Positions 13,545 to 29,338 of a DNA stretch of 42,628 nucleotides are shown here, one piece after another. The stretch comes from Spirochaetaceae bacterium (GTDB lineage Bacteria > Spirochaetota > Spirochaetia > DSM-27196 > SLAA01). The notes below the pieces were generated by a model. That model was given only the letters and a program-made list of their open reading frames with translations. It was not told the origin of the DNA and did no database searches. The stretch is taken from the NCBI GenBank assembly GCA_003556605.1, contig PWQX01000168.1, positions 1 to 42,628 of the forward strand. The letters are read 5' to 3'. Positions within the stretch are counted from its first letter, which is position 1. Every line of letters begins with the position of its first letter. Both the position numbers and the translations under genes were made by a program.

Positions 13545-14088
13545 ACCTCTGCACTCCTCGTAACTATGATTCTTGCATCCAGGCCCATCGAGGAGCAGCC
13601 CATCATAATCCTCACTCGCGGGAATCCCGTCATCCGCTAGCTGAGGCTGCTGCGAAGCCTTTCTCATACGCGATCGAGGACTTCAAAAGACCTTATTGCG
13701 CAATCCTTTCCGCTCGTGAGCACTATTACCGTTTCGTGAAATCGCTCGTGAGTTCAACCTCTTCACAGTAACGAGTTCATCTTCGGCTATCAAGGCGTAG
13801 CCTCGTCTTTTGCAACGATGAGGTTCAACGATGAGGTTCGCATGAACCGATTACGCGGGGCGGGACTACGAGAAGCGGCTCACCTGCCTTGTACTTATTA
13901 CGCTGAATGCCGGCAAACGCACACACACACACCGATGGTCTCATATGATACACTGACCTTCTTGTGCATGCAGCTGGTAACCAAGCCTAACTGCACCCTT
14001 GCGGGATAAGCGAGTTGGGTGGTCTCTAGCGGCAGCGCTTCCGACCCCGGCAGATTGCACCGGGATCAGGGGGCTTACGGAGGACGCT
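13545..14088. other. Non-coding gap with simple repeats
   Basis: About 540 bases. It contains a tandem 13-bp duplication (CAACGATGAGGTT at 13813-13825 and 13826-13838) and a short (AC)n run around 13919-13932. The only recognisable control element is the GGAGG ribosome site for the gene at 14089. I see no RNA gene or supported coding region. Confidence 0.5.
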
Positions 14089-15246
14089 ATGAACACGCCT
14101 ATTACCTTCGATAACCTTGAAGTCGGCTATGATATCCCGGCGCTGCCGGGAATGCCCGAGAGCGAGATCCAAACACCCTGCCTTGTGGTCGATCTCGACG
14201 CTCTTGAGCGAAACATTGCAAGAATGCGTGAGTTCTGTTCCGGGGCGGGGGTACGCCACCGCGCACACGCCAAGATGCATAAATCCGTGGACGTCGCGCT
14301 CTATCAGATCAAGCTCGGCAAAGCTTGCGGCGTGTGCTGCCAGAAAGTGAGCGAGGCCGAGGTCTTCGCGCGCAGCGGGGTACGAGATATTCTAGTGTCC
14401 AACGAGGTGCGCGATCCGCTCAAGATCGACCGCCTGGTACAACTGCCGAGGCTCGGCACACGTACCGCCGTGTGCATTGACGATTCGGAAAACGTCGCCG
14501 ACCTGTCGGGGGCGGCCGTAAGACACGGCACCGAGATCGAAGTGCTTGTGGAAATCGACTGCGGCGGCAACCGTTGCGGAGTGGCTTCCGGAAAGCCGGC
14601 GGTTGATCTTGCGAAGGCAGTAGCTCGTGCACCGAACCTAGTCTTTGCGGGCCTGCAGGCCTATCAAGGTGCAGCCCAGCAAGTCCATGACTACGCCGAG
14701 CGTAAAGCTATGGCCGACAAAGCTATCTCCAGGGTCCGCGAGACAGTCGATATGCTGAAAGCCGAAGGACTGGCATGCAATACCGTCAGCGGCGGCGGAA
14801 CGGGCACGTATCATTTCGACGGCAATTCGGGCGTTTACAACGAACTGCAATGCGGCTCTTACGCCTTCATGGACGCCGCCTATAAGCGCATAAAGGACAA
14901 GAACGGAAACCCTATCAGCGAGTTTGCCAATGCGCTGTTCATCCTTTGTTCGGTGATGAGCCACGCCAAGGCGGACAAGGCAATCGTGGATGCGGGGCTC
15001 AAGGTACAGTCGGTGGACAGCGGCCTGCCGGTGGTGTTCGGTCGCGATGATGTGGAATACATCAAATGTTCCGACGAGCACGGCGCGGTGGCGGACCCGA
15101 ACGGTGCTCTGAAGGTGGGCGACAAGCTCAGGCTGGTGCCTGGTCACTGCGACCCCACCTGTAATCTGCATGACTGGTACGTCGGGGTGCGCGGCGGCAG
15201 GGTCCAAACCCTTTGGCCCGTCAGCGCCCGCGGCAAGATCTACTAG
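14089..15246 (+). CDS. DSD1-family PLP enzyme (D-serine dehydratase / D-threonine aldolase type)
   Basis: 385 aa, fold-type III (alanine-racemase-like barrel) PLP enzyme acting on D-beta-hydroxy amino acids. The PLP lysine is Lys62 in the RAHAKMHKS motif (family RPHxKTHK). The metal site near the C-terminus is His353-x... with Cys354 in VPGHCDPTCN, typical of the Zn/Mn-dependent D-serine dehydratase and D-threonine aldolase group. The ATG at 14089 follows GGAGG; the preceding in-frame TTG (13999) lacks a site. Products would be pyruvate plus ammonia (D-Ser) or glycine plus an aldehyde (D-Thr); the sequence does not separate these. Next to an L-threonine-aldolase-like gene, so both stereoisomers of a hydroxy amino acid could be handled. 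Confidence 0.88.
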   Translation: MNTPITFDNLEVGYDIPALPGMPESEIQTPCLVVDLDALERNIARMREFCSGAGVRHRAHAKMHKSVDVALYQIKLGKACGVCCQKVSEAEVFARSGVRDILVSNEVRDPLKIDRLVQLPRLGTRTAVCIDDSENVADLSGAAVRHGTEIEVLVEIDCGGNRCGVASGKPAVDLAKAVARAPNLVFAGLQAYQGAAQQVHDYAERKAMADKAISRVRETVDMLKAEGLACNTVSGGGTGTYHFDGNSGVYNELQCGSYAFMDAAYKRIKDKNGNPISEFANALFILCSVMSHAKADKAIVDAGLKVQSVDSGLPVVFGRDDVEYIKCSDEHGAVADPNGALKVGDKLRLVPGHCDPTCNLHDWYVGVRGGRVQTLWPVSARGKIY

Positions 15247-15462: not shown

Positions 15463-16572
15463 ATGGCAACGGGAAAACCGCCGTCAAGCGCCGCAGCAGC
15501 GCGTATTGACCTATATAGCGATACCGTCACCCGTCCCGGCCAAGGGATGCGGCGCGCCATCGCCGAGGCCGAGGTGGGTGACGAGCAGCACCGATTGGAC
15601 CCTACGGTGAACCGCTTGGTCGAGCGTGTGAGCGAGCTACTTGGCGCCGAGGACGCGCTATTTCTGCCCTCGGGGACCATGTGCAACATGATTTCCCTGC
15701 GCGTTCACTGCAGTCTCGGAGACGAGGCGATTACGGACCGTTCGGCGCACATACGCGTAAATGAATCAGGCGGTCCCGCAGCACTTGCGGGGGTGAACAT
15801 CGCTACTATCGACGGAGATAAAGGCGTCTTCACTGCTCACCAATTGCGAGAGGCTATTCGGCCTATCGGGAATCACTTTCCAAGATCACGGTGTGTGATC
15901 ATTGAGCAAACCGCGAATCTCACCGGCGGTGTGATCTGGCCGATTGAAACGATTCGCGAGGTTTGTGATACAGCGAAGAAGTTCGGACTTTCGTGTCATA
16001 TGGACGGCGCGCGGCTTTTCAACGCGGTTGTGGAGACGGGCGTTCCCGGATCCGAGTTCTGCCGTTCTTTTGACTCAGCCTGGATTGATTTCAGTAAAGG
16101 TCTCGGCGCTCCGGTGGGCGCGGCACTCACCGGCAGTGCAGATTTCATTCGGGAGGCTTGGCGTTTCAAGCACCAGTTCGGCGGCGCGATGCGACAATCC
16201 GGCATAGTTGCAGCGGCGGCCCTTTATGCAATTGAGCACAACATCACCAGATTGGCTGATGACCACCGCAACGCTCGCCGATTCGCAGAGATTCTTCGAG
16301 ACGCGCCGGGGATCACCGTTGAACCGGTGCATACGAACATGGTGTTCTTCACCGTTGGCGGCCGGAACGTTCTAGATCAAGCCGAGCCTGATAATACTAG
16401 TACGTTCACGCCTGCCCGAGTATTCGCGGACGCAGCGCTCAACCAAGGCGTTCGTTTCTCGGTAGTAGGTCCTAGGCGCCTGCGTGCCGTAACTCATCTT
16501 GATGTCACGAGTCACCAGGTAGAAGAGGCGGCCAAGATCGCACTACAGATCGCGAAGTCAAGCGTGATATGA
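15463..16572 (+). CDS. ltaE: Low-specificity L-threonine aldolase family enzyme (beta-eliminating lyase)
   Basis: 369 aa, fold-type I PLP enzyme that would split L-threonine or L-allo-threonine into glycine and acetaldehyde. Visible: the N-terminal DLYSDTVTRPGQGMRRA, LDPTVNRLVERVSELLG, substrate-side FLPSGTMCN, a stacking His96, EQTANLTGG, Asp181 in MDGARLFN and the PLP Lys212 in DFSKGLGAP. The ATG at 15463 has GGAGG 7 nt upstream (another ATG at 15459 is out of frame). A little longer than E. coli LtaE. Downstream of the DSD1-family gene on the same strand with a 216-nt gap, probably with its own promoter. The gene symbol marks the family only. Confidence 0.88.
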   Translation: MATGKPPSSAAAARIDLYSDTVTRPGQGMRRAIAEAEVGDEQHRLDPTVNRLVERVSELLGAEDALFLPSGTMCNMISLRVHCSLGDEAITDRSAHIRVNESGGPAALAGVNIATIDGDKGVFTAHQLREAIRPIGNHFPRSRCVIIEQTANLTGGVIWPIETIREVCDTAKKFGLSCHMDGARLFNAVVETGVPGSEFCRSFDSAWIDFSKGLGAPVGAALTGSADFIREAWRFKHQFGGAMRQSGIVAAAALYAIEHNITRLADDHRNARRFAEILRDAPGITVEPVHTNMVFFTVGGRNVLDQAEPDNTSTFTPARVFADAALNQGVRFSVVGPRRLRAVTHLDVTSHQVEEAAKIALQIAKSSVI

Positions 16573-19177: not shown

Positions 19178-19349
19178 TCAAATAGTATGGCCTCGTGATC
19201 ACTCGGTTAGTCAATGGGGGTCCAAAGAATAGAAGCTATGACCACTCAGGCGTCTCGACGAGTTTCCACAAAGTCGCCGCTTACGCGATCTTTGCTCCGT
19301 CAAGCGTTCGTTTATCAACAGGGCGCAGCGGTCAGCAGGGCACTTGACA

Positions 19350-19365
19350 TGAACTTGACAGTTCA
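19350..19365. promoter_or_regulatory. Candidate operator in front of the GntR gene
   Basis: TGAAC-TTGACA-GTTCA is a perfect 5-bp inverted repeat around a TTGACA, with another TTGACA just upstream at 19344-19349. A promoter here could be auto-regulated, but no good -10 box is evident. Confidence 0.35.
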
Positions 19366-19383
19366 AATAGCATTCCAGCGAAA

Positions 19384-20112
19384 ATGCGAGCTAAGACGTC
19401 AACGCACACATCGAAGGTTCGTCTCCCGCAAACCAACGGGGGAGCCCTGAGCGATCAGGTCTATGAGTACCTCGTAGAGCGGCTGATTCGCGGAAGCATA
19501 GAGTACGGTGACGCGCTGAATATCAAGCAGCTCGCGGCGCACCTGGGCGTGAGTCCTATGCCGATCCGGGATGCCATAAAGCGTCTTGAGATGGAGGGGG
19601 TAGTCGTTGTCAAACCGCGCAGCGTGTGTTATGTCCGCAAGCCCACCAAGCGGACCACCTTGGCGGCAATTGATGCTCGCGAAATGCTCGAGGTTCAAGC
19701 GATATCGATGTACTATCGTACCGTCGATCGTGACGAACTGTCGGGCCTCCACCAATTGCTCGTGAGAATGCGCCCGCATGCGGAGTGCGCTGAAAAAGGG
19801 GCGCTGGAGCAAGCCGCCGAGATCGCTAAGTATATAGAGCTGGATCGCGAGTTTCACGAAGAACTGTGCCGGCTTTCCCGAAACATGTACATCCAGCGCT
19901 TTTACCGCGAGATCAGTATGCATCTGAACATGAGCTTTCGCTACGGCACAGGCACTTGTCACGGGGTTGAAACCACCTATGGCGAGCACCAGGCCATTTA
20001 CGGGCATTTGTGCGGGAACTCCCGGCATGCGGTGTCGGTACTGCGCCGGCATCTACGTCAAAGCAAGCAGAATATCCTCAGCGATCCAAGGTTTCACACC
20101 CTGTCGGACTGA
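19384..20112 (+). CDS. GntR-family transcriptional regulator, FCD (FadR) subgroup
   Basis: 242 aa. The N-terminal winged helix-turn-helix (~25-85) has LNIKQLAAHLGVSPMPIRDAIKRL and EMEGVV; the C-terminal FCD effector domain (~95-235) includes the metal/ligand positions in LDREFHEELCR and GEHQAIYGHL. Such proteins are mostly repressors released by a carboxylic acid such as a hexonate, lactate or keto acid. It is adjacent to, and likely controls, the SDR and TAXI-TRAP genes through the paired CTGATATATCAG sites about 0.9 kb to the right. The ATG at 19384 lacks a recognisable ribosome site, so the start is uncertain. Confidence 0.88.
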   Translation: MRAKTSTHTSKVRLPQTNGGALSDQVYEYLVERLIRGSIEYGDALNIKQLAAHLGVSPMPIRDAIKRLEMEGVVVVKPRSVCYVRKPTKRTTLAAIDAREMLEVQAISMYYRTVDRDELSGLHQLLVRMRPHAECAEKGALEQAAEIAKYIELDREFHEELCRLSRNMYIQRFYREISMHLNMSFRYGTGTCHGVETTYGEHQAIYGHLCGNSRHAVSVLRRHLRQSKQNILSDPRFHTLSD

Positions 20113-20119
20113 TCCGCGA

Positions 20120-20869
20120 CTAATCCATAAGGAATCCGCCGTTTACATCGACGATCTCACCGGTGATGAATGCAGCCCCGGAGGATACGAGGAACAGGAC
20201 GGTTTCGGCAACCTCCTCCGCTCGGCCAAGCCGCTTCAACGGTATCGAGTTACGAATAGCCGTACGTTTCTCCTCATCCCATTCCGCGCTCATTTCGGTC
20301 TCGATGGCGTGCGGCGCAACAGCATTGACCAGGATGTTATGCTCCGCGAGCTGTCTTGCCAACGATTTGGTCAGCGCGTTTACGCCTCCCTTGGATGCTC
20401 CGTATGCCGGAGCGGCGCTGATGTCGCCAATCTTCCCGGCTACTGAACTCACGTTTACGATCTGCCCTCCTCCCGCCTGCACCATCACGGGAATCAGCTC
20501 TTTGCAGCATATAAACGTACCGGTGAGATTTACATCGAGAACCGCCTGCCAGTCCTCGTAAGTAAGATCGAATATCGTTCCGCGTCGAATGATTCCCGCG
20601 TTGTTTACCAAGATTGTAGGCGGCGCTGCACATTCTTTGACGATGCGTCTAACAGTCTCGGCCACCTCAGCCTGGCGAGCAACGTTGGCACGGTAGAGGC
20701 GGGCTGCGATTCCGAGGCCTTCAAACTCTTTGAGCGTCTTTTCGGCCTGGGGATGCACATCGACTATAGCGACTTCCGCACCATGCTGGGCGAGTTTTCG
20801 CGCAATGCTCTTGCCGATTCCCCGGGCCGCCCCGGTTACCACCGCCGTCTTTCCATTGAGACCGCGCAC
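20120..20869 (-). CDS. SDR-family oxidoreductase (FabG-like)
   Basis: 249 aa classical short-chain dehydrogenase. TGAARGIG (12-19), NNAG (89-92), catalytic Ser141/142, Tyr156 and Lys160 (YGASK). FabG-like labels are the default, but next to a GntR gene and a TRAP transporter a sugar-acid or hydroxy-acid dehydrogenase (KduD/gluconate-5-dehydrogenase type) is more likely. The start is GTG at 20869, with AGGAGGAGG about 11 nt upstream; the spacing is long but no better start is in frame. Convergent with the GntR gene (7-nt gap) and divergent from the TRAP operon. Confidence 0.88.
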   Translation of the reverse strand: MRGLNGKTAVVTGAARGIGKSIARKLAQHGAEVAIVDVHPQAEKTLKEFEGLGIAARLYRANVARQAEVAETVRRIVKECAAPPTILVNNAGIIRRGTIFDLTYEDWQAVLDVNLTGTFICCKELIPVMVQAGGGQIVNVSSVAGKIGDISAAPAYGASKGGVNALTKSLARQLAEHNILVNAVAPHAIETEMSAEWDEEKRTAIRNSIPLKRLGRAEEVAETVLFLVSSGAAFITGEIVDVNGGFLMD

Positions 20870-20933: not shown

Positions 20934-20955
20934 CTATACTGATATATCAGTATAG
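20934..20955. promoter_or_regulatory. Operator 1: perfect palindrome at the SDR promoter
   Basis: A 22-bp perfect palindrome whose centre is CTGATATATCAG, flanked by TATA arms. It overlaps the -10/start region of the leftward promoter for the SDR gene. The same 12-bp core recurs at 21050-21061. The likely binder is the neighbouring GntR/FCD regulator. Confidence 0.75.
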
Positions 20956-20981
20956 TAACCCTGTAGGGGCCTACCTGTCAA
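20952..20981 (-). promoter_or_regulatory. Candidate leftward promoter for the SDR gene
   Basis: On the minus strand a consensus TTGACA (20981-20976) is followed after 18 nt by TACTAT (20957-20952). A TATACT lies three bases further, inside the palindrome. Confidence 0.5.
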
Positions 20982-21018
20982 CTCCCCTCCGATTCCGTCC
21001 CGCCGCACAAAGCCGCTC

Positions 21019-21048
21019 TTGACAGCGGCCCATGAGTCAAGCTATACT
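21019..21048 (+). promoter_or_regulatory. Rightward promoter of the TAXI-TRAP operon
   Basis: TTGACA (21019-21024), 18-nt spacer, TATACT (21043-21048). The second operator begins 2 nt downstream, covering the expected transcription start, which is the classic repressor position. Confidence 0.7.
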
Positions 21049-21049
21049 T

Positions 21050-21061
21050 CTGATATATCAG
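21050..21061. promoter_or_regulatory. Operator 2: CTGATATATCAG at the TRAP promoter
   Basis: Perfect 12-bp palindrome identical to the core of the site at 20934-20955. Centre-to-centre distance is about 111 bp, so the two sites could also be bridged by a DNA loop. Confidence 0.7.
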
Positions 21062-21148
21062 TTGGGGTGAAGCCGATCTTGCCCTGTGAACCGGCCGGCA
21101 GCGCGGGTCGGTTTTGCGCCACGCGAAACGATAAGGAGGTACCTGGGT

Positions 21149-22141
21149 ATGAAACGCCTAACAACGGTACTGATTGCGTTGGTGTTGGTGTTCGGTGTCG
21201 GCTTTGCGCTGTTCTCCGCCGCAGAGCCGGACGTGCAGTTCGTTCGAATCGCTACCGGCGGCACCGGCGGAAACTTCTATCGCTTAGGAGCCGGAATCGC
21301 CTCGGTCTGGAATGACGAAGTTGAAGACATTGTCGCCTCCACCCAGTCCACAGACGGGTCGCCGCACAATGCCGAGTTGCTTGCCGCAGGTGAAGTTGAG
21401 ATAGCGTTCATGGGAGCCGATATTGCCCGTGACGCCTACCACAACACCGGCAGGTTTGCCGATGAGCCCGAGGGGTACTACCAGGCGCTCAACTTCATCA
21501 CCTACCTGTATCCGAACCCGCAGATGTTTCTGGTCATGGACTGGGCAGCCGACGAGATCGACACCATGGCCGACATCGCGGGCAAGCGTGTCTCGAAAGG
21601 GGCGATCGGCAGTCTTGGTGAGGTCTACTTCCTCGAGACGATGAAGGTGCTCGGCATAGATCCCGATGATGTAATTCAGGAGCACACGGTTCATGGAGCG
21701 GCCATCGACCAGGTCCGTGACCGCCATATCGACGTAGTGATGTGGCCGGATGCGGCCGGGTCGGCGAGCCACATGGAGATTCTTGAAACCGGTCACGCGG
21801 AAGCGCGCAGCGTCGACCCGGAGATTATCGAACACTTCACAACCGGCGCCTGGGACATCAATTTCGAGTACACGCTGCCGGCGGATACCTATCGAAATCA
21901 GCCCGAAGATGTTTACACCTTCGCGGCTCCCATTATTCTTCTCGCACATGCCGATCTTCCCGATGATCTGGTCTACGAGTTGACCAAGACGCTGCATGAA
22001 AACCAGCCGGCGTTGGTGGCAATCGCCGATCTTCTGGCGGAGTTCATGACGGTCGATGTGGCACTGGAAGGCCAGCAGATTCCGCTGCATCCGGGAGCCG
22101 AGCGGTTCTACGCAGAGGCCGGTGTCCTCGGTTCTAACTGA
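21149..22141 (+). CDS. TRAP transporter solute-binding protein, TAXI family
   Basis: 330 aa. Signal peptide (MKRLTTVLIALVLVFGVGFALF), then the family hallmark VRIATGGTGGNFYRLGAGIA (~33-52), ASTQSTDGSPHNAELLAAGEVEIAFMGAD and LYPNPQMFLV. TAXI proteins capture a carboxylate or amino acid (for example glutamate or 2-oxo acids) and pass it to a fused TRAP permease. The ATG at 21149 has AAGGAGGT 8 nt upstream; the longer open frame is not signal-peptide-like. First gene of the GntR-controlled operon. Confidence 0.93.
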   Translation: MKRLTTVLIALVLVFGVGFALFSAAEPDVQFVRIATGGTGGNFYRLGAGIASVWNDEVEDIVASTQSTDGSPHNAELLAAGEVEIAFMGADIARDAYHNTGRFADEPEGYYQALNFITYLYPNPQMFLVMDWAADEIDTMADIAGKRVSKGAIGSLGEVYFLETMKVLGIDPDDVIQEHTVHGAAIDQVRDRHIDVVMWPDAAGSASHMEILETGHAEARSVDPEIIEHFTTGAWDINFEYTLPADTYRNQPEDVYTFAAPIILLAHADLPDDLVYELTKTLHENQPALVAIADLLAEFMTVDVALEGQQIPLHPGAERFYAEAGVLGSN

Positions 22142-22303: not shown

Positions 22304-24331
22304 GTGAGCCAAAAGGACAGCGGGGGAGAATCGGAAAAGCAAGCGTTATCGGAGGAGCGCGGGCCTGGTCGCCGAGAGTCGATCGCCGAGCAGGACATCA
22401 TCGACCTGTCCAAGCTGGATGCCTCGCAAAGCTCGGGACCCCAGACAACCTATGAGCTCACCGGTGCCTGGTTCTGGATCTTCACGGGGCTTGCGATCAT
22501 TTCCGGAGTATTCCACTTCTACACCGCCGGCTACCGCACGCTGCCGGCAATGATGCAGCGTCCTACACATCTAGCGTTCATCCTGGTTTTCACCTTCATG
22601 CTGTACCCCGCCTTCAAAAAGGATCTTACCCGCAATCGTCCGAGCGTGTTCGACATTATGTTGGCTGTTCTCGCCGTTGCGGGCGCACTGTATCTGGTTT
22701 TCAATATTCGCGCCATTGCCGAGGCACGGGGCCGTGTGTCGCCGCAAGAGATGGTTATGGGCGTGGTCTTCATGGCCGTTCTCATTGAGGCCGGAAGGCG
22801 TGCGATCGGCAAGTTCATGCTCATCTTCGCAACGGTATTCATCGCCTACCTGTTCGTGGGGCCTTGGCTTCCGGGTACTATACTGCGGCACGGCGGATTC
22901 ACTTTGGCGCGGGTGGTCTCGCACATGTACACCAGCATCGAAGGTGTGTTCGGTATAGCCGTGGGAGTATCGGCGACCTATGTCTATTTGTTCATTATCT
23001 TCGGAGCATTTCTCAGTAAGTCGGGGACCACCCAAGTCTTTGCCGACCTGGCGCTCGCCGCCGCCGGACATACAGCCGGCGGCCCTGCTAAGGTCGCTAT
23101 CATAGCAAGCGGACTGATGGGCACCGTCCAGGGTTCTTCCGCCGCTAACGTGGCGGCCACCGGCCTGTTTACGATTCCGCTGATGAAGAGTCTCGGGTTC
23201 AAGGGCTATTTTGCCGCCGGAGTAGAAGCAGTCGCGTCTTGCGGCGGTCAGTTCCTGCCGCCGGTGATGGGTGCCTCTGCATTCATCATGGCCCAATATC
23301 TCGGCCGGCCGTACGCCTATGTTGCAGCCGGAGCCCTATTGCCGGCACTCTTGTACTATGCCGCGGTATTCCTGCAGGTGCACCTGCACGCCCGCCGCAG
23401 AGGCATGGAAGGGATCGATCGCAGACGGCTCCCGGCACTGGGTGGTGTGCTGCTGAGAAAGGGACATCTACTGCTTCCGATCGTGATCCTCGTTGGGATG
23501 ATCGTGATAGGCTTCACCGCGCTGTACTCCGCTTTCATGTCGACGATCGCGATTTTTCTCATCAGCTCGCTGCGAAAGGCGACCCGCATGTCGCTCGTCG
23601 ATGTCGTCGACGGCCTACGCATGGCCGCGCGCAGTTGCATCACGACGGCGCTCGCGTGTGCGATTGTGGGATTCGTGGTCGGAGCGGTAGCTTTGTCCGG
23701 GCTTGGAATGCTTATTACCCAGCAGATCGTGCGCGCCGGCGCCGGCCTGCTGCTTCCCACGCTTCTCATCGCAGCAGCCTCGTCGTTGGTTCTGAGCTTC
23801 GGGCTGCCGACTACGTCGGTGTACATTATCACCGCTACGCTGGTGGCGCCGGGGCTGGTACAGGTCGGTCTTCCGCCGCTGGTAGCGCACTTGTTCGCCT
23901 ACTACTGGGGCGGCGTATCGGCTATCACCCCGCCGGTCGCTCTGGCGGTATTCGTGGGCTCCGGCATCGCAGGGTCTCCCTTGATGAAGAGCGGCTTCAC
24001 GGCGATGCGGCTCGGGATCGCGGCCTACATCGTACCGTTCTACTTCGCTTTCTGGCCGATGCTGATCACCCGGGATGCCCCACCGTTTCAGATCGCGCTG
24101 GCGATTCTCGGTGGAATCGTGACAATCATCTGTCTGGCAGGCCTTGGAGAGGGCTATTACTTCCGTCCCCTGCCGTGGTACAAGTATACACTGCTGTTGG
24201 TCGCGGTTCCGCTGTTGATTGCGCCGACGCTATGGTCGCAGCCTGCCGGAACGGCGATTGTTGCGTACATTGTGATCTCGGAGTTAATACTGAGACGTGC
24301 GAGAAAAGCCGACACAGCCGTGGCGGCCTAG
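22304..24331 (+). CDS. TRAP transporter fused permease subunit (4TM/12TM)
   Basis: 675 aa membrane protein with the DctQ-like and DctM-like parts in one chain, the usual partner of TAXI proteins. A ~45-residue polar N-terminus precedes the first TM. The DctM part begins around residue 125 and contains ETGRRAIGK-like EAGRRAIGKFML, GTVQGSSAANVAATG (~275, ion/substrate loop), GGQFLPPVMGASAFIMA (~310), GLPTTSVYIITA and YYWGGVSAITPPVALAVF (~535). The start is GTG at 22304, 6 nt after a GAGAGGA site. Sodium-coupled carboxylate uptake; substrate unknown. Confidence 0.93.
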   Translation: MSQKDSGGESEKQALSEERGPGRRESIAEQDIIDLSKLDASQSSGPQTTYELTGAWFWIFTGLAIISGVFHFYTAGYRTLPAMMQRPTHLAFILVFTFMLYPAFKKDLTRNRPSVFDIMLAVLAVAGALYLVFNIRAIAEARGRVSPQEMVMGVVFMAVLIEAGRRAIGKFMLIFATVFIAYLFVGPWLPGTILRHGGFTLARVVSHMYTSIEGVFGIAVGVSATYVYLFIIFGAFLSKSGTTQVFADLALAAAGHTAGGPAKVAIIASGLMGTVQGSSAANVAATGLFTIPLMKSLGFKGYFAAGVEAVASCGGQFLPPVMGASAFIMAQYLGRPYAYVAAGALLPALLYYAAVFLQVHLHARRRGMEGIDRRRLPALGGVLLRKGHLLLPIVILVGMIVIGFTALYSAFMSTIAIFLISSLRKATRMSLVDVVDGLRMAARSCITTALACAIVGFVVGAVALSGLGMLITQQIVRAGAGLLLPTLLIAAASSLVLSFGLPTTSVYIITATLVAPGLVQVGLPPLVAHLFAYYWGGVSAITPPVALAVFVGSGIAGSPLMKSGFTAMRLGIAAYIVPFYFAFWPMLITRDAPPFQIALAILGGIVTIICLAGLGEGYYFRPLPWYKYTLLLVAVPLLIAPTLWSQPAGTAIVAYIVISELILRRARKADTAVAA

Positions 24332-24347
24332 CGAAGGACGGAATGCC

Positions 24348-25343
24348 ATGACGGGGAAGAATGGAAAGGTGATCGTTTTTGCGACAAGTTTTCTCGACGA
24401 GCCAGTGACCGAGCTGTATGAAAGCGACCGCCCGCGGCGTTTGCTGGAAGAGGCGGCCGCGCGACATCAGATGAAGATTGACTACCGGTGCACGCGAAAA
24501 CCCAGCGAACCGCTCTCGCCGGAAGAACTAGAGGGCGCGGTCGCGGTGATCGCCGACTTAGAGCGCTACAACGACGAGTTGCTGCAGCAGGTTGGGGCCG
24601 GTCGCGGCGGCTCGCTCGGTTTGATCGCTCGTTACGGCATAGGATACAGCAACGTCGACATCGAAGCGGCCAAGGACTGTGGAGTTCTGGTGGCCAATGC
24701 GCCGGGGGCGAACGCGCCGCCGACCGCTGAATGGGCGGTAGCGACGATACTCGATGTGGCCGGCCGGCGCATCGCGCATCACCAGCGCGCGGCTGCGGGG
24801 AAGACGAAGACCGGACCGGGGCGGCTCGACGTGCGCCAAAGAACGCTCGGGGTGATTGGAAGCGGGGCGATCGGAAAGCTGGTGGTGCAGCTGTTGGAGG
24901 GGTTCGAGATGCGGGTGCTGGCCTACGATCCGTACCCCGATCAGGCGTGGGCACGCGAAAACGCGGTGGAGTACGTAGACCTGCCGACCTTATGCCGGCA
25001 GGCCGACTTTATCACGCTGCACGCCTCCGGCGGCAAACAGATCATCGGAGAGGCGGAGCTGGCCCAAATGAAGCCCACGGCGGTACTCGTGAACTGCGCG
25101 CGCGGCGCGCTCGTGGACAACCGCGCCGCCTACTTCGCAGTCAAAGCAGGGCAGCTGTGGGGCTACGGGCTTGATGAGGTCTGGGAACACCCCGATCTAC
25201 CGCCGGCCGGCATCAACATTATTCTCAGTCCGCATGTGGGCTCGGATACCGATGAGGGCAAGCTTGGGATGCAACTGATGTCGGCCGAAACGGTAGTGGA
25301 GTTCCTCAACGGCGAGACGCCGCAGCACACCGTTAACGTGTAG
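24348..25343 (+). CDS. D-isomer-specific 2-hydroxyacid dehydrogenase (phosphoglycerate-dehydrogenase-like)
   Basis: 331 aa. Rossmann motif GSGAIG (171-176) with the NAD-type Asp in AYDPYPD (194), catalytic Arg252 (NCARGALVD), Glu280 (DEVWEHP) and His296 (SPHVGSD). The N-terminal substrate domain has ARYGIGYSNVD. The ATG at 24348 is used; it follows a GAAGGA site, and the gene begins 16 nt after the TRAP permease stop, so it is in the same operon. It probably reduces or oxidises the 2-oxo/2-hydroxy acid taken up by the TAXI-TRAP system. Only distantly like the other dehydrogenase at 9700. Confidence 0.9.
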   Translation: MTGKNGKVIVFATSFLDEPVTELYESDRPRRLLEEAAARHQMKIDYRCTRKPSEPLSPEELEGAVAVIADLERYNDELLQQVGAGRGGSLGLIARYGIGYSNVDIEAAKDCGVLVANAPGANAPPTAEWAVATILDVAGRRIAHHQRAAAGKTKTGPGRLDVRQRTLGVIGSGAIGKLVVQLLEGFEMRVLAYDPYPDQAWARENAVEYVDLPTLCRQADFITLHASGGKQIIGEAELAQMKPTAVLVNCARGALVDNRAAYFAVKAGQLWGYGLDEVWEHPDLPPAGINIILSPHVGSDTDEGKLGMQLMSAETVVEFLNGETPQHTVNV

Positions 25344-28077: not shown

Positions 28078-29139
28078 TCAGCCGCAAAACGTGTGGGCTA
28101 CCTCTACCAACGCTTTCAAATTTGCAACCGGTGTACGGGGGGCGACCTCGCATCCTGATCCTAGAATGATCCCTCCGTCGAGAGCTTGGGTCGAACGCAG
28201 GCAGTGGTCAGCGCGTGAGCGCACCTCCTCCGGCGTGCCCTGTAGCAGTACCGTTGTCGGGTCAAGGTTGCCCATGAGAGCTACGCTGCCGGCAGTCAGT
28301 GCCTTCGCCTCCGCCATCTCTACCAGCGCGTCTATCTCCAGCACGTCTGCACCTGTCTGCGCCATCAGCGGTAAGATGCGTCTTGTGTCCCCGCAAATGT
28401 GCAGCACGGTCACGGCATCTTTTTCGCGGGCGAGCGCCTCGATCGCCGTGAATACCTTGCGCTCGTAGGGGAACACGTACTTCTCGTAGATAGTCGGTGA
28501 GATCATGCTCAGTGACGCCAATGAATCGCCGGCCTGCGCTACATCTGATCCCGCCTCCAGAACCGCCTTCAGAAAGGAGATCAGGCCGTCGGAGGCGATA
28601 TCCATGACTCTGAAGAGCTTCTCTTGCGCCTCCGGGTCTTCGTCGGTCTCCGCTTGCGCAATATCCATAAGAAACTGTTGAGTACCGCCGCAGAGGTAGC
28701 TCGCGATTGAAAAGGGACCGGTTCCCGGACCTCGAATCGCGACCTCATCGCCGAAATGCGTTCGCAGCTTATGCACCGCGTCGAGATATACAGGCATGCG
28801 ACCATCGGTGTATGGATCGGGTAGCTTGAGCCGGTCGACCTGGTCCAAGCTCTCCACCGCCGGCTTCACCAGGTGCGGCGTAGTGTCAAAGGGCTGCTCT
28901 ATCGCACAACCGTAGCCCTCGGCGATGTAGTACTGATCCGACTGTGCGACTACAACGTCATGGCCAAGAGTTTCCCATGTGCGGATGTGGGCTTCCGCCA
29001 TCCTCCCTGCGTCGGAGTTGTACAGCGAGATCGGGATCCCGGCCAGTGCCGCCCCGAAGTTCCCGTTGTACGGAGCCGCCGGAATCAGATCAGGTTTCCC
29101 AAGTTTCGCTGCAGCGAGGAAGCGCTCTCTCGGTTTCAT
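28078..29139 (-). CDS. Uroporphyrinogen-decarboxylase-family methyltransferase, MtaA/CmuA type (URO-D 2)
   Basis: 353 aa. Opening MKPRERFLAAAKLGKPDLIP and the barrel motifs match the MtaA/MtbA/CmuA branch, where a zinc ion activates a thiol for methyl transfer from a methylcorrinoid. The zinc ligands are intact: His247-x-Cys249 (LHICGDT) and Cys330 (GSGCEVAPRTP). ATG at 29139, after GAGGG. Leftward; upstream of URO-D 1 and the broken sulfatase. No corrinoid-binding protein gene is in the window, so its partner must be elsewhere or it uses a free cobamide. Methylated substrate unknown. Confidence 0.85.
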   Translation of the reverse strand: MKPRERFLAAAKLGKPDLIPAAPYNGNFGAALAGIPISLYNSDAGRMAEAHIRTWETLGHDVVVAQSDQYYIAEGYGCAIEQPFDTTPHLVKPAVESLDQVDRLKLPDPYTDGRMPVYLDAVHKLRTHFGDEVAIRGPGTGPFSIASYLCGGTQQFLMDIAQAETDEDPEAQEKLFRVMDIASDGLISFLKAVLEAGSDVAQAGDSLASLSMISPTIYEKYVFPYERKVFTAIEALAREKDAVTVLHICGDTRRILPLMAQTGADVLEIDALVEMAEAKALTAGSVALMGNLDPTTVLLQGTPEEVRSRADHCLRSTQALDGGIILGSGCEVAPRTPVANLKALVEVAHTFCG

Positions 29140-29338
29140 GCCAATTTTTCCCTCTTCGCCTGCCAAGCCTGATCTGCAGCCGGGAAAGTTGTTTTCACCA
29201 GCCGCCGGAGGCAATGAACAACGGCCGGAACAATTCGGCACCGTGCTGCACCAGCCGCATAGCAGCCTATCCCAAAAGCGCATCGATGTCACCACCGGCT
29301 GCCGCGGAACGGGGCTGCGGATCAGCGGCGGTTGGACG

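Follow-up and report, generated by a model that had tools for sequence, protein, structure and literature searches.

Architecture of the locus

The window (the whole stretch of 42,628 nucleotides that was analysed) comes from an uncultured spirochaete and carries two copies of the sequence CTGATATATCAG, which lie over the predicted start sites of two divergent promoters. The first gene proposed to be regulated, which is read leftward, encodes an SDR-family dehydrogenase (20120-20869, minus strand). The second, which is read rightward, encodes a TAXI-family TRAP solute-binding protein (21149-22141, plus strand; TIGR02122, 217 bits against a cut-off of 84). It is followed on the same strand by genes for a fused TRAP permease (22304-24331; TIGR02123, 605 bits, cut-off 321) and a D-2-hydroxyacid dehydrogenase-like protein (2HADH; 24351-25343; PF02826, 6.8e-36). 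The latter gene is probably part of the TAXI TRAP operon, and a homolog of it adjoins the operator in two related loci (L037 and L014).

Convergent with the SDR gene lies that of the proposed repressor (19384-20112, plus strand), which has an N-terminal GntR winged helix-turn-helix (PF00392, 61.6 bits, cut-off 27; 5.4e-17) and a C-terminal FCD domain (PF07729, 57.7 bits, cut-off 24.3; 2.1e-15). Judged by this domain content, the predicted protein is a member of the FCD (FadR) subfamily of the GntR family. None of the named NCBIfam equivalogs (PhnR, NanR, LldR, PdhR) scored above its cut-off, the best match being TIGR03338 with 69.5 versus the 271.5 required. A promoter-like site precedes the gene (19344-19373, plus strand; TTGACA-18-TAGCAT), but it does not carry the operator core. 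Thus, autoregulation is not evident in the window, though it is suggested in relatives: there, the promoter from which the GntR gene is read, whether that of the SDR operon (L036, L038) or one of its own (L037, L040, L041), carries the site too. The spacer of the window's GntR promoter holds a different inverted repeat, TGAACT-TGAC-AGTTCA (19350-19365), which is a possible site for autoregulation or for another regulator. Elsewhere in the window, at 13999-15246 and 15463-16572, a BhcC-like 3-hydroxy-D-aspartate aldolase (685.8 bits, just below the cut-off of 690) is encoded beside a GntG-type PLP aldolase, a pair that hints at nearby hydroxy-amino-acid metabolism.

Two identical sites at promoters of the same geometry

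Both divergent promoters are of the sigma-70 type. The leftward one (20952-20981, minus strand) has TTGACA at 20981-20976 and TACTAT at 20957-20952, and the rightward one (21019-21048, plus strand) has TTGACA at 21019-21024 and TATACT at 21043-21048. They share the same geometry, in which TTGACA, 18 nt, the -10 element, a single nucleotide and the 12-bp core follow one another; thus, at either promoter the predicted start site lies under the core. The predicted SDR-side operator occupies 20939-20950, within the perfect 22-bp palindrome CTATACTGATATATCAGTATAG (20934-20955), and the predicted TRAP-side operator occupies 21050-21061, 111 bp away when measured start to start. An earlier note on this DNA had described the GntR/FCD gene next to the SDR gene, the 22-bp palindrome overlapping the leftward promoter, the identical core at both promoters, a spacing of about 111 bp and the TTGACA-18-TATACT promoter. 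All of these were borne out, as was the placement of the core directly after the TRAP -10 element, except that the gap there is 1 nt rather than 2.

The sites from this and related loci were aligned to establish which positions are conserved (23 sites, chosen by their 10-bp core and oriented by promoter). Information was concentrated in the 12-bp core, with little at the positions beyond it, which indicates that the longer symmetry on the SDR side is an extension coinciding with the -10 element. The 22-bp palindrome was therefore rejected as the functional unit, as its outer arms are not conserved. Because the sites were chosen by their core, independent conservation is limited to the outer C and G, which played no part in the choice and are kept in 18/23 and 19/23 sites, respectively, and to the promoter position: a perfect TTGACA lies 26-41 nt upstream of 20 of the 23, versus 1.2% per random stretch.

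The sites are unique to this locus in the genome

Within the window, CTGATATATCAG is the sole 12-bp perfect palindrome that is present twice. A repeated 12-bp palindrome of any sequence arose in 5% of first-order Markov trials with the window's dinucleotide content, and the corresponding expectation for 22-bp palindromes is 0.03 per window. Across the 3.88-Mb genome, the 10-bp core TGATATATCA occurs exactly twice, both times at this locus, and the reversed control pattern does not occur at all. The motif is therefore not frequent at random positions, nor did the genome-wide search find the core upstream of any other operon. Only two sites have a single mismatch, one in the coding frame of a large, repetitive protein and one in that of an rsmH-like gene, and the number of sites with up to two mismatches is close to that of the reversed control (72 vs 54), which leads us to reject a multi-operon regulon in this genome. 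The earlier proposal of a repressor-controlled regulon thus holds for operators on divergent promoters, with the GntR/FCD protein as the best candidate regulator, but is narrowed to a single divergon.

Conservation of the sites with a GntR/FCD ortholog

Four congeneric genomes (G001-G004) were compared. G002 and G003 possess both sites together with a TAXI gene of 83-84% identity; G001 and G004 have neither the gene nor the two sites. The TRAP-side site holds its position in the congeners (TTCTGATATATCAGTTGGGG) and lies in a block (21048-21067) that is identical to G003 at 20 of 20 nt, whereas identity over the remainder of the intergenic region is 51%. The SDR-side site is shifted in G002 and G003, where the two sites are 165 bp apart instead of 111 bp. 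No GntR gene was found for this locus in the two genomes, probably because of an assembly gap, as both contigs end within the SDR gene.

Orthologs of the GntR/FCD protein were found at 32 loci (L036-L067; 34-57% identity), in Spirochaetota only; beyond these, similarity falls off and the matches are unrelated GntR proteins from other phyla. Many of the genomes compared are fragmented metagenome assemblies. The ortholog loci contain 10 exact TGATATATCA cores in 316 kb, 9 of which precede the GntR gene by 85-1077 nt; the surroundings of 47 outgroup GntR genes (532 kb) contain none. A search of 46 genomes from the order gave 14 exact 12-mers, of which 10 fall in the module, either beside the GntR ortholog or at a TAXI gene, and the reversed 12-mer occurs three times anywhere in the same genomes. 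A tree of 39 proteins places the window protein in a 10-member subclade (97/98 support), and the compact operator lies close to the gene of each of the ten.

The genes that accompany the operator differ among these loci. SDR-GntR faces TAXI-TRAP in L036 and L038, GntR-2HADH faces TAXI-TRAP in L037, and GntR faces a DctP-type TRAP system with a nickel-pincer-dependent isomerase in L041, with L040 being similar. Elsewhere, the operator adjoins DctP (L010), 2HADH (L014) or ABC-type transporter genes (L048, L066). What the loci share is the GntR gene, while the SDR, TAXI, DctP, 2HADH and ABC genes vary, and this comparison of gene neighbourhoods makes the protein encoded at 19384-20112 the best candidate for binding, and repressing at, both sites. 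L066 has three sites (945, 2117 and 5938), one of which lies about 60 nt before a gene for an MtaA/CmuA-like methyltransferase of the URO-D family; the window's own MtaA/CmuA-like gene (28078-29295) is without a site.

Alternative explanations for the paired sites

Two identical, strong sites in one intergenic region could be bound at once by the same GntR protein, with the intervening 111 bp looped out, as the earlier note had considered the spacing to permit. In the six genomes with double sites, however, the spacing is 111, 165, 165, 251, 266 and 336 bp, corresponding to 10.6, 15.7, 15.7, 23.9, 25.3 and 32.0 helical turns, and is thus neither constant nor helically phased as looping repression would have it. 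Rather, it grows with intergenic length (r = 0.93 for n = 6 double-site divergons, two of them near-identical, such that not all are independent). Dependence of inter-site distance on intergenic length is a mark of double sites that control each operon separately, an arrangement already described for GntR/FCD proteins (PMC4494728). Moreover, several relatives have only a single site (L040, L041, L010, L014). We therefore favor independent sites and reject looping between the two operators, which we consider improbable.

The sites could also be bound by another regulator, such as a metal repressor of the DtxR/TroR type. The Treponema denticola tro operator probe contains TTTTGATATATCAAAA (PMC2628430, tro promoter oligonucleotides), so that the TroR operator has the 10-bp core in common with the window sites. 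Three DtxR-type proteins are encoded in the genome, and these could in principle bind, as could nine further FCD proteins. However, the core is found nowhere else in the genome, including the surroundings of the DtxR genes, and the flanks are C/G (18/23 and 19/23 sites) instead of T/A. The T. denticola operator also differs in its regulator family and in serving metal-transport genes, whereas the genes linked here encode transport and dehydrogenase functions and the constant neighbor is GntR. A DtxR/TroR-type binder is thus judged very unlikely.

Some GntR-family proteins act as activators, and the candidate regulator could be an activator or dual-acting instead of a repressor. In nearly all loci, however, the site follows the -10 element and sits over or just past the predicted start, a position that would block rather than recruit polymerase, and both promoters of the window have full TTGACA boxes. 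The chance of activation being its role is accordingly small. Finally, a palindrome without function is scarcely credible despite the 5% of Markov windows with a repeat, because the core is unique to these two promoters in the genome and recurs in different genera at promoters next to the same ortholog.

Comparison with known regulators

The proposed system is of a known kind: a repressor that acts locally on one divergon, as in normal bacterial nutrient switches. The window protein shares its winged helix-turn-helix and FCD make-up with the FadR-subfamily local repressors of carboxylate catabolism (such as GlcC, LldR, UxuR and DgoR), which likewise act in local divergons beside transporter and dehydrogenase genes and have palindromic, A/T-rich operators. 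The recognition sequence differs: the common GntR/FCD operator consensus has GT/AC boxes, whereas CTGATATATCAG has GA/TC in their place. The TKGT/ACMA boxes are absent from both window sites; this consensus is common in the family without being universal or defining, and NanR and BioR depart from it (PMC4494728). Within open-access full text, the 12-mer was found only as a PCR primer and a search for spirochaete GntR operators returned nothing fitting; in that literature, CTGATATATCAG is previously undescribed for a switch of this type.

The protein itself also differs from FadR and TM0439 at aligned positions. Arg35 and Arg45, the base-contacting arginines of FadR, align with Lys48 and Pro58 of the window protein. 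By profile, the best solved structure is TM0439 (E 3.8e-23), a GntR/FCD protein of Thermotoga maritima (PDB 3SXY, 3FMS); it is only distantly similar and has Arg where the clade mostly has Lys (Lys48). Two positions before the conserved recognition-helix Pro, the clade has Pro, Ser, Thr, Met or Leu, and never Arg. These aligned substitutions may relate to the changed operator. An Asp and three His of the TM0439 FCD domain align with positions that are conserved in the window clade.

Proposed mechanism and effector

Taken together, the sequence comparisons make it very probable that the CTGATATATCAG sites are operators for dimers of the GntR/FCD protein, which would independently repress the SDR and TAXI-TRAP genes and be released by a carboxylate. 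Without inducer, each site would be occupied by one dimer, which would extend from just past the -10 element across the start and block RNA polymerase separately at the SDR promoter and at that of the TAXI-TRAP(-2-hydroxyacid dehydrogenase) operon. The inducer would be a carboxylate imported by the TRAP transporter; it would bind the FCD domain and free the dimers, such that uptake and catabolism would be turned on together. Asp/His sets of FCD domains bind metal and carboxylates, and the window protein keeps D154, H158, H202 and H223, which is compatible with the predicted effector. Our best guess is a 2-hydroxy or 2-oxo acid, which we infer from the neighboring genes, namely the TAXI TRAP, SDR and 2HADH genes and the nickel-pincer-dependent isomerase of L041, which carries a lactate-racemase domain.

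For an uncharacterised TAXI-TRAP uptake module of spirochaetes, the locus thus supplies two defined operators with their promoters, together with a candidate for the repressor. A simple binding screen could find the effector and, hence, the substrate of the TAXI TRAP transporter. The main survey of GntR motifs did not include Spirochaetota, and its taxon table lists no protein from that phylum (PMC4494728).

Half-site arrangements in the wider clade

At more distant ortholog loci, GntR promoters still contain the half-site CTGATAT, in arrangements other than that of the window. An exact copy was found in 14 of the 16 such promoters examined, and loci with the half-site (L042, L044-L047, L050-L052, L054-L058, L060 and L061) carry it ca. 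50-120 nt ahead of the GntR gene. In the window clade, the half-sites are inverted and overlap (offset +5), forming the compact operator. The other arrangements are an inverted pair separated by 5 bp (+12), an everted pair (-10) and a direct repeat (+7), each concentrated in particular subclades, and the everted form is that of one clade (100/99 support). On the 39-protein tree, the arrangement labels cluster, requiring 13 changes vs 22.3 in shuffles, a difference inflated by related sequences. The pattern is suggestive of rearrangement of the half-sites across the wider clade. That the dimers of this group altered their geometry on DNA several times, with base recognition retained, is a tentative reading, to which we give somewhat less than even chances. 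The varied arrangements provide a natural series for studying operator change.
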